Below, piece by piece: positions 12,519 to 37,333 of a stretch of 54,091 bases of DNA (positions are counted from its first letter, which is position 1; every line of letters begins with the position of its first letter). The notes under the pieces were generated by a model that was given only the letters and a program-made list of their open reading frames with translations, searched no databases and was not told the DNA's origin. Made by a program: the position numbers and the translations under genes. The stretch comes from an uncultured Erysipelotrichaceae bacterium (lineage in GTDB: Bacteria > Bacillota_I > Bacilli_A > RF39 > UBA660): positions 1-54,091 of the forward strand of contig CAOJNP010000006.1 of assembly GCA_948439995.1 (NCBI GenBank). Direction: 5' to 3'.

Positions 12519-13445
12519 TTAAAACCTCACAATCTCTTTATAATTCATTGGAAATCCCATATAATCTAATACTTTTTCAATTGTTATAGATTTTAATTTA
12601 CTTGATAATAAATTAATTTCATAATCTAAATTTTCCATCAAAAGATAAAAATCATCAGATCGTAACAATTTTTTTAAAATAATAACCAAAGCATATAAAT
12701 CATCTTTTCCATAAATATATTCACCATCCGTTTTAGGTATTTCTAATCTACTATGGTAAATTGTATCCGGAATTGGTCTTTGCGCTTTATGATCATATAA
12801 TAAATCCTCATGAGCACATAAATTTCGATAATTCGCTAGTATTGGTAACCAAATCAATAAATCTTCAGATTTTACATGAAAAAACTCTGCAATACTTTTT
12901 TGATCTTCTAATTTTAATATGGAATATAATTCCCCAATAATACCAAAAGATAAAATTTTTACCACTATCCATAACGGAATATAACCATATTTTTCAATAT
13001 AATGTTGCGTTGCTTGATGAGAGCTTCCATTTACCCTAATTTGACGATTTAATTTTTTTAATAAATCATTTACTTGTTTTTTCCGATTTGCATCTCGAAC
13101 AAAATTTTTCGGATTTAAGTATTGTTCTTCTTTAATACCATAATGCATGGATACTTCATATGCTAAAATACTTTTAATATTATTTTCAATAATTAATAAA
13201 TTCTTAAAAATAATGTTTCGAATATGACGATCAAAGTAAAAAACAGAATAAAGTTCATTAAAAGTGGTACCCTTAATAAAGATACGATTTGTATTATTTT
13301 CTAAAAATAAGTGTCGATATCCACTTAAGAAAAAATAATTTTCACGTAACAATATTTCTTTAGCATAATCTTCATCTGGAATAATGAGACCTTTACTTTG
13401 TAATATTTTAATCTGCTCATCTAAGGTTTTAAATATTTTCTCCAT
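12519..13445 (-). CDS. Abi_2 (AbiD/AbiF-like) HEPN protein
   Basis: A 308-residue member of the Abi_2 family, related to lactococcal AbiD/AbiF abortive-infection proteins. Family landmarks: the N-terminal DEQIKILQSKGL, ENYFFLSGYRHLF (about 35-47) and FYFDRHIRNII (about 69-79). Near the C-terminus NYRNLCAHED contains a complete HEPN RNase motif RxxxxH (R207, H212). By family knowledge it may cut RNA on phage attack; Abi_2 relatives have also been found as CRISPR effector ancestors. It is first in an operon with htrA, with an extended -10 promoter upstream and a GGGGTGA ribosome binding site. Confidence 0.88.
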   Translation of the reverse strand: MEKIFKTLDEQIKILQSKGLIIPDEDYAKEILLRENYFFLSGYRHLFLENNTNRIFIKGTTFNELYSVFYFDRHIRNIIFKNLLIIENNIKSILAYEVSMHYGIKEEQYLNPKNFVRDANRKKQVNDLLKKLNRQIRVNGSSHQATQHYIEKYGYIPLWIVVKILSFGIIGELYSILKLEDQKSIAEFFHVKSEDLLIWLPILANYRNLCAHEDLLYDHKAQRPIPDTIYHSRLEIPKTDGEYIYGKDDLYALVIILKKLLRSDDFYLLMENLDYEINLLSSKLKSITIEKVLDYMGFPMNYKEIVRF

Positions 13446-16022: not shown

Positions 16023-17522
16023 TTATTTTTCTTTTGAAAAGCCATTTTCATTCAAAATATAAACTTCATCCATTACTTCTTCAATGTATTTTCGATCATG
16101 TGATACACTAATAATCGTCCCTCCAAATTCTCTTAATACTTTTCTTATTACTGGATTTGTTAATGGACTAACATTTCTTGTGGGTTCATCTAAAATTAAG
16201 ACATTACAATGATCTAAAACTAATTTGATTAAAATTAACTTTGCTTTTGTTCCATTACTTAAATCTTCTATTTTTCCAGCAACTTCATTTTTAGTAAAAT
16301 TCATATTTGCTGAATACTTTCGTGCTAATGTTGTATCTTCTTTTTGTTTGGAAGTAATAAAATCCAAAGTAGTTTCAAAACTTCCTAAAATTTCATCATA
16401 AAATTATGGCATATAACCAACAACGATATCTTTTCTATTTTTTAATTTTTCATAAATATATTTCAATAACGTTGTTTTTCCTATTCCGTTTTTACCAATA
16501 ATACATAAATGCGTACTTCCTGTAATATTCAATTTAATATCTTTTGATAAAATTTTATTATCTATTTTTAAAATAGGTATATCTAAATTAATTATAATTT
16601 TATTACTTGGAATGGTTACTTTTTCAAATTGAAAAAAAATACTTTCCTCAACTTCTGGGATTTGAGTTAATTCCCAATCATTTAATTTTTTTTCTTGCGA
16701 TTTTAACGAATGCATTTTCTTTTTTAATACTTTAGCTCCATGAGGATCTTTTCTAGATATAGTATTTTGTTGATATTCCACCGTTTGCAAAATTCGATTT
16801 AACTTTTCTTCTTGTTTCGTATATTTTCTTTGTTCCAATTTTGCTTCTTTAAATTGTTTTATGATAGCATTCATCCTTGTATTAATATAAGTGTCATAAT
16901 CAATTTTTAAAATAGTATGTCTACACTCAGTCTTTTTTTTAATTTGTTCTAAATGAAGTATCATATTAGCAGTTTTTGATAATAATGTTTCATCATGAGA
17001 TACATATACAATTGGCTTATTGGTTTTTAAAAAAAATTCTTCTAACCATTCTAATGTTTCGATATCTAAATCATTCGTAGGTTCATCTAAAAATAAAATA
17101 TCATAATCATTTAATAATAGTTTTAATATACCAATTTTAACTTTTTCTCCTCCAGATAAAATATTCATGTTTTGATTTAAAATCACATCTTCTAATTGAA
17201 ATAATTCAAGAAAATGATACAAAGAACGAATTTTATTATAATATTCCTCTTGATTTAAAAACAAATAATCAAATACAGTTTCGTGTAATTGCTCTTTACT
17301 GAATGATTGACCTAAATAACCGATTGTATTTCCTTTTAATTGTATTGACCCTGTTATTTTCGAATAATCGCAAAATCCCAGCAAAGACTTTAATAAAGTT
17401 GATTTTCCGTTTCCTTCTTCTCCAATAATAGCCAATTTATCGCCTTAATTTAAAGTAAAAGATAAAGAGCGAACAAAATATTTTGTAGATATCATAATAT
17501 CTACATTTTTTACTTCAAACAT
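16023..17522 (-). pseudogene. ABC-F ribosome-protection-type gene with two nonsense codons
   Basis: One continuous 500-codon frame from ATG 17522 encodes a two-cassette ABC-F protein without membrane domains, the type that frees ribosomes from antibiotics. Cassette 1 has GEEGNGKSTLLK, LSGGEKVKIG and LFLDEPTNDLD; a charged linker follows; cassette 2 has GKNGIGKTTLLK, LSNGTKAK and LILDEPTRNVSP. TAA codons interrupt it at 17447-17445 (residue 26, where Lys is expected before GDKLAIIG) and at about 16407-16405 (after VGYMP, where Gln is expected). No frameshift is present, so the damage is two point changes. The second signature has Asn for Gly. The gene keeps GGAGG at its start and an attenuator leader. 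Partial products could be made from internal TTG codons. Confidence 0.88.
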
Positions 17523-17523
17523 A

Positions 17524-17562
17524 TTATGCCTCCTTAATTTGGCATAAATAAAGTTTTATGCC
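17524..17562 (-). promoter_or_regulatory. Translational attenuator: competing hairpins before the ABC-F gene
   Basis: Three complementary segments lie in order on the minus strand: GGCATAAA (17562-17555), TTTATGCC (17548-17541) and GGCATAA (17530-17524). The middle one can pair with the first, leaving the Shine-Dalgarno GGAGG (17533-17529) free, or with the third, which masks GGAGG and the spacer before ATG 17522. A 7-codon leader ORF ends just before the first segment. This is the layout of antibiotic-inducible attenuators such as that of ermC. The switch is inferred from sequence pairing. Confidence 0.7.
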
Positions 17563-17586
17563 TTACTTCTTTTTAAAATAAATCAT
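17563..17586 (-). CDS. Leader peptide MIYFKKK of ABC-F attenuator
   Basis: ATG 17586-17584 encodes MIYFKKK and stops with TAA at 17565-17563. AGAAGGTGA lies at good spacing upstream, as strong as for real genes here. Its stop is adjacent to the first hairpin arm, so a stalled ribosome would cover that arm and change the pairing downstream. Leader peptides of this size precede many inducible macrolide, lincosamide and pleuromutilin resistance genes. Confidence 0.6.
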   Translation of the reverse strand: MIYFKKK

Positions 17587-17629
17587 TTTATCACCTTCTA
17601 TTTTTATGAAATTTATTAAACAAATTAAA

Positions 17630-17667
17630 TTGAAAAAAAGAAAAGCCCATAAACATAAGTTTATGGG
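17630..17667 (-). terminator. Terminator of rplM-rpsI operon
   Basis: CCCATAAAC (17667-17659), loop TTAT, GTTTATGGG (17654-17646), then CTTTTCTTTTTTTC on the minus strand. Confidence 0.88.
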
Positions 17668-26989: not shown

Positions 26990-27199
26990 CTAAAAATAAA
27001 AAAGTCACGAACTAAAGGACGAGCAAACCCCGTGGTACCACCTTTATTCATGACTTTCATGCACTTTCTTTCGTAACGTGAATCATCCGTTTTAGCTCCA
27101 GAATCATTTTCAATATTTCTTTTTATCTATTCTCACCAAACATAGATTCTCTCAAAAAAAGAAAATATCTCTCTTTCCTTCATTACTAAATTTATGAAA
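26990..27199 (-). promoter_or_regulatory. T-box leader of metG
   Basis: The minus strand carries the T-box core AAAGGTGGTACCACGGG (about 27046-27030) and, just after it, CCTTTAGTTCGTGACT (27018-27003), which pairs with AGTCATGAATAAAGG (27055-27041) to form a terminator ending in a T-run. Upstream lies a stem I-like region with an apical ATCTAT/ATAGAT helix and a GGTGAGA loop. An ATG at 27107-27105 is a plausible Met specifier. Uncharged tRNA-Met would stabilise the antiterminator. Confidence 0.92.
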
Positions 27200-37209: not shown

Positions 37210-37225
37210 TATTATAAATAAAAAA

Positions 37226-37300
37226 ATGTGCACACAAACAGAGATTATATTGGCTGCTATCTTCCGATCCTGACCATTTTATAATATATTTGTTGCACAA
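37226..37300 (-). ncRNA. ffs: Small bacterial SRP RNA (4.5S type)
   Basis: The minus strand contains the SRP tetraloop domain GGTCAGGATCGGAAGATAG followed by CAGCC, which binds Ffh. The ends pair (GTGCAACAAA with TTTGTGTGCAC) and a T-run follows. It is a short form of about 75 bases without the Alu domain. The place between gyrA and tadA/dnaX fits Bacillus scr. Two C-to-A/T-type differences from the usual loop flanks (AGGATCGG for AGGTCCGG) are seen. Confidence 0.9.
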
Positions 37301-37304
37301 ACTT

Positions 37305-37333
37305 ATTTTATCAAAAATTTCATTGTTAAGCAA
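37305..37333 (-). promoter_or_regulatory. Promoter of SRP RNA
   Basis: Minus strand TTGCTT (37333-37328), 17-base spacer ending in TGA, TAAAAT (37310-37305), about 7 bases before the RNA's 5' end. Confidence 0.65.

Follow-up and report, generated by a model that had tools for sequence, protein, structure and literature searches.

An ABC-F gene on the minus strand of the window (the whole stretch of 54,091 nucleotides analyzed here, from an uncultured Erysipelotrichaceae bacterium) is preceded by a seven-codon reading frame, MIYFKKK, which raises the question of how so short a leader could govern the gene behind it. A first-pass annotation had answered with a translational attenuator of the erm pattern, in which a ribosome stalled on MIYFKKK would free the ABC-F start. 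The parts that it had listed, the reading frame with a ribosome binding site and three pairing segments, were present (Table 1); arm2 fell opposite arm3 in 36 of 20,000 dinucleotide shuffles, and both arms arose in none of the 20,000 (SD end held fixed). The middle segment paired with either neighbor as annotated, with longer transcripts folding into the 1:2 hairpin and removal of arm1 giving the 2:3 hairpin, and the segment said to hide the ABC-F Shine-Dalgarno (SD) sequence did overlap AAGGAGG. Fold z-scores of the single window sequence were modest (-1.6 to -2.3), and in the window copy 1:2 was stronger than 2:3, opposite to most relatives. The scan of the window's minus strand found no intrinsic terminator at the element, and an Rfam search of the window gave no family at the gathering score for the element, returning only a T-box leader and a small SRP RNA.

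Table 1. Positions of the leader, pairing arms and ABC-F gene, and of other RNA features in the window.
Feature	Position in window	Strand	Remarks
rpsI intrinsic terminator	17646-17667	-	Upstream; lies between the ribosomal protein operon and the element, separating them
Leader Shine-Dalgarno, AAGGTGA	17591-17597	-	From sequence; GAGGTGA-type SD in nearly all relatives
Leader ORF, MIYFKKK and stop, 7 codons	17563-17586	-	ATG 17586-17584; TAA 17565-17563
Arm1, GGCATAAA	17555-17562	-	Pairs with arm2 (open state); predicted to lie under a ribosome that has reached the leader stop
Arm1-arm2 loop, ACTTTA	between 17562-17555 and 17548-17541	-	
Arm2, TTTATGCC	17541-17548	-	Partner is arm1 or arm3
ABC-F Shine-Dalgarno, AAGGAGG	17529-17535	-	Overlaps arm3 in part
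Arm3, GGCATAAT	17523-17530	-	With arm2 hides SD and start (closed state); compensatory changes
ABC-F gene, ribosome-protection type	16023-17522	-	Start ATG 17522-17520; in-frame TAA at codon 26 (17447-17445) and codon 373 (16406-16404); intact in relatives
T-box leader (Rfam)	27012-27192	-	
Bacterial small SRP RNA (Rfam)	37213-37308	-	

Relatives were gathered from the same family, from GTDB genomes, and by covariance model. The leader, which the annotation had proposed to search for ahead of homologues in related genomes, was found together with all three arms in 73 distinct relatives, and one outcome that it had named as fatal, homologues in which leader and arms are unconserved, did not occur. 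A 74th sequence, the clostridial L090, had the hairpin and lacked a proper arm3. Among 385 genomes of the order, all 50 covariance-model matches with E<1e-4 lay directly before an ABC-F gene of the same clade, whole or remnant; of five weaker matches (E up to 0.01), three preceded the clade and two were false, one being G058:C26 and the other falling where an ftsW-like gene starts in G216. The class-wide search added one genome of another family (G658, copy L197), again with the element before this ABC-F. Its element and ABC-F gene were almost as in L032, and the copy appears to be either a recent transfer or a mis-binned contig. No match to the arm1-loop-arm2 pattern was found in viral contigs.

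In the protein tree, a single clade with support 98 comprised 77 rows, of which 70 were three-arm rows (70 of 70 in the tree) and seven had no arms, one of these (L038) only because its contig ends there; the history of the element reads as one gain and a few losses. The persistence of an MR leader without arms in G180/L071 and in genus g48 showed that leader and arms can part. Armless MR-type leaders before the same ABC-F included MRILLSKK, MRISVWSKQ, MRILSSIK and MRIMKQEKL (L191, L195 and L196 of g48; also L071/L156). The L196 leader has codons, CTTCTAT, that are complementary to ATAGAAG at the ABC-F SD, a pairing that would make a different switch. A 46%-identical ABC-F (L007, G038) had another leader region, with a possible uORF MNITY and a T-rich stretch ca. 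150-230 nt before the start, and this region is perhaps a transcription attenuator.

Sequence changes among the relatives indicated that pairings 1:2 and 2:3 are both real, as a three-way compensatory change was accompanied by other paired changes. In L151 and L155, arm1 read GGGTATAAA, arm2 TTTATACCC and arm3 GGTATA, so that a change from C:G:C to U:A:U kept both helices; the two are sister genomes in the protein tree, and the change therefore counts as one evolutionary event. Both sides of 1:2 were altered from G-C to A-U in L147 (GACATAA/TTATGTC), where 2:3 was kept through G-U, and wobbles kept the pairs in L035, L055, L057, L074 and L148. The closing helix of L006, L078 and L160 had shifted onto the start codon, with arm2 and the loop pairing as AACAUUU:AAAUGUU. 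The start region paired with its own arm2 at -10.6 kcal/mol in L006 and -11.0 kcal/mol in L078, against -6.4 and -3.8 kcal/mol, respectively, with the typical arm2 of others. Averaged over all sequences, the swap between arm2 and start region gave no signal (own -9.5, swapped -9.3), the comparison being informative only in these divergent two. RNAalifold alone, with a covariation term of -0.02, added little, since the arm sequences hardly vary; it was the covariance-model matches that supplied the telling variants. The 2:3 closing helix was the stronger helix in 57 of 73 sequences.

The leader peptide, which the first-pass annotation did not recognize, proved to be an outlier within a conserved MR-x-[LIV]-x-K family. 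A leader ORF of three to nine codons stood at the same place in 73/73 relatives with arms, most often with six codons (49 of 74 leaders) and with the consensus M-R-[ITN]-[LIV]-x-K. Arg2 occurred in 56 of 74 leaders, and its encoding by four different codons (AGA, CGA, CGT or CGC) suggests that the residue itself is under selection. Other outliers were MIKLEKK (L148), MKKYKMK (L139) and MINLIK (L127), and the shortest leader was MRI in L160 (G191), where the spacing between arm2 and arm3 was longer. Residues at the leader end were loose, and frames shifted between lineages; the leader stop nevertheless lay -7 to +6 nt from arm1 in every leader, including those of 19 lineages with a shifted or altered leader length.

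The ABC-F gene that had been annotated behind the leader was present, broken by its two in-frame TAA codons. As the frames of relatives are open and neighboring frames stop at TAA, the window copy is probably a pseudogene, and the element in the window, heading a broken gene, probably a relic; alternatively, the TAA codons may reflect an assembly error in a MAG. Reassignment of TAA to Gln was disfavored. Gln would fit both codons (codon 373 was Gln in 4/4 intact relatives compared, and codon 26 was variable), but the neighboring frames and the stop-free relatives made gene decay likelier. More decayed copies were found in L039 and L126 (frameshifts) and in L159 (internal deletion).

An AlphaFold model of an intact relative (mean pLDDT 88.5) had the two ABC domains and long helical linker (helices 209-254 and 260-281) characteristic of antibiotic-resistance (ARE) ABC-F proteins, and its nearest solved folds in the PDB included the ribosome-protecting PoxtA, VmlR2, Sal(B), VgaL and VgaA-LC. 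The best profile was NF000355, "ribosomal protection-like ABC-F", at 288-304 bits, under its cut-off of 380. No curated ARE subfamily cut-off was reached, the scores for the Vga, CplR, Msr and Sal models all being far below theirs. We place the protein among the ARE-like ABC-Fs, apart from the named subfamilies, as a candidate resistance factor. Plasmid relatives were Vga proteins only about 30% identical, and defense-system models, which were set aside, matched only as generic ATPases.

Ribosome footprints were taken from B. subtilis and E. coli, with the edge of a start-codon ribosome at +16 (PMC9226507) or +16 to +18 (PMC12121999). Arm1 began at +18 to +35 from the leader A, past the +16 edge in 73/73, and with the start codon in the P site it was left free in 73/73 at an edge of +16 and in 72/73 at an edge of +18. 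When the leader stop occupied the A site, the ribosome covered four to six of the six arm1 core nucleotides in all 73, and the last harmless P-site codon was codon 3 or 4 in 68 of them. Stalling on MIYFKKK would thus free the ABC-F start, as had been claimed, only at the start or first few codons, and not later. The modelled cost of opening the ABC-F start was higher with a ribosome at the leader stop than at the leader start in 72 of 73 sequences, by a mean of +4.5 kcal/mol, against -0.9 kcal/mol in a control with the leader-to-SD stretch shuffled. Free RNA in the model was close to the induced state (4.9 vs 4.1 kcal/mol), and repression would therefore depend on frequent translation of the leader. 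Comparison across the relatives settled the conserved leader, both pairings, this geometry and the link to the ABC-F clade.

In the trp attenuator, the off helix forms once a ribosome has completed the leader and sits on the first arm, and the on helix results from an early stall. Geometry and the energy model placed the element in the same logic, as a ribosome at the leader stop would cover the first arm and favor the off helix; trp regions 2, 3 and 4 would correspond to arms 1, 2 and 3. The trp operon differs in that it controls transcription and senses tRNA-Trp, whereas here the translation of an ABC-F gene would be controlled. We consider it reasonably probable that the element is a purely translational three-arm attenuator of an ARE-type ABC-F gene with trp logic, responding to drugs that arrest ribosomes close to start codons. 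The strong leader SD would load ribosomes, which would translate five to seven codons. In the off state, a ribosome at the leader stop would cover arm1, leaving arm2 to pair with arm3 and hide the ABC-F SD and start. A retapamulin-, lincomycin- or tetracycline-like drug, by halting ribosomes on the start codon or the first ones after it, would leave arm1 bare and block the following ribosomes, so that arm1 would take arm2 first and the ABC-F start would remain open. Pairing 1:2 could form before 2:3 during transcription, though 2:3 is mostly stronger. Against this reading stand the nearness of free RNA to the induced state in the model, the stronger 1:2 of the window copy, the single event behind the three-way change, the MR leaders that persist where the arms are missing, and the use of footprints from B. 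subtilis and E. coli. The leader would signal the failure of ribosomes to pass the start; we infer the ribosome states, the drug class and the direction of the response.

ABC-F genes are commonly under uORFs that sense early-stalling drugs, including vmlR (MIN), cplR (MR[I/M]), vmlR2 (MK[L/Q]) and lsaA (MAGN); two of these, vmlR and cplR, have been dissected, and both have the uORF within the first hairpin and make use of a terminator (PMC9226507, PMC10201436). A short leader before a PLSA-type ABC-F, an SD-hiding hairpin and a presumed response to initiation-stalling drugs are shared with vmlR of B. subtilis. However, the uORF of vmlR lies inside SL-1, which is broken by the stalled ribosome, and control is mainly by a terminator (PMC9226507), whereas the leader here lies outside all arms and a terminator was not seen. 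With cplR of C. difficile, the element shares the MR start (exactly MRI in L160), a main-gene SD hidden when off, and a translational layer that suffices in cplR (PMC10201436). The cplR uORF lies within the 5' hairpin and its off hairpin doubles as a terminator (PMC10201436), whereas the element differs in sequence and arms and its protein scored far under the CplR cut-off. A short uORF before an ABC-F gene whose SD is hidden when off was thus found here as well, but with the leader outside the first hairpin in all 73 relatives and with no intrinsic terminator in the leader in the window scan or the relatives. In E. coli toiL-topAI, start-codon stalling by tetracycline or retapamulin frees a hidden SD, as proposed here, but toiL codons themselves pair with the SD (PMC12121999), whereas separate arms lie downstream of the leader here.

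The element belongs beside the vmlR/cplR kind and not the erm type, and because none of its arms contains the leader and a terminator was not seen, it would be a new form of uORF-controlled ABC-F. We lean, by a narrower measure of confidence, toward an RNA family not described so far, in which three arms and no terminator make up a translational switch that responds to ribosome passage past the first leader codons. A completed leader would mean off, the inverse of erm, vmlR and cplR masking, and the switch would serve one ABC-F clade in many genera of uncultured gut Bacilli.

In ermC and ermB, which work by four-arm masking and late arrest, the SD in arm4 is released when a stalled ribosome sits on arm1. 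Translational control, a leader peptide and alternative pairing are common to these genes and the element, which also has a leader ORF with its own SD upstream of the gene; the element has three arms, however, and its arrest would be early. Of the annotated erm-like attenuator, the attenuator before the ABC-F gene was upheld and the erm logic was not, because with three arms and no fourth, covering arm1 would close the gene, and in the model masking raises the opening cost. It is therefore unlikely that a drug-stalled ribosome late in the leader or at its end, as with ErmCL or MsrDL, rearranges the arms and frees the ABC-F start. A leader with alternative pairings does stand ahead of a resistance-type gene, and MsrDL (MYLIFM) is equally short and stalls at its own stop codon (PMC10314930), but in the model an end-of-leader ribosome favors the hiding helix, and the loose, frame-shifting leader end also speaks against such a stall. 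Just as doubtful is a sensor of amino acids or general translation stress, in which slow decoding of Arg2 or any early slowdown would act and drugs would be one trigger. The conservation of Arg2 fits it, and under trp logic any early pause would trip the switch; the target, however, is an ABC-F ribosome factor and not an amino-acid pathway, and other drug-inducible ABC-F genes also have MR or MK leaders (PMC10201436; possibly the MKIL of vga(A)).

Translational coupling, with ribosomes terminating at the leader and restarting at the ABC-F gene ca. 40 nt on and the 1:2 hairpin merely bringing the sites nearer, is less probable again. The short, fixed distances and the leaders without arms in g48 lineages agree with it, but it does not predict the conservation of arm3, or the SD-hiding helix with its compensatory changes. 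Least probable is an attenuator acting on transcription, like those of vmlR, vga(A) and msrD. This is the commonest mode in ABC-F genes (PMC9226507, PMC10314930), and a terminator follows the possible leader of vga(A) in L200, but the window's minus strand had none at the element, and the relatives had no U tract after arm2 and only AUGUU after arm3. The vga(A) copy, on S. aureus plasmid pUR2355 (L200 343-357, 403-435), has a possible MKIL leader and then GCCTCC..GGGAGGC-TTTT.

If the trp-like translational switch is correct, resistance-type ABC-F genes could be induced by a minimal device without a terminator, and drug-responsive genes of uncultured gut bacteria could be searched for by means of this conserved marker. 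The switch predicts that start-codon-stopping drugs induce and that late-arrest macrolides do not. The natural leader variants (MR-x-[LIV]-x-K) could be used to ask why Arg or Lys recurs at position 2 of ABC-F leaders. Elsewhere in the window, a 308-aa ORF (12519-13445, minus strand) presumably resembles Abi_2-type abortive-infection proteins.
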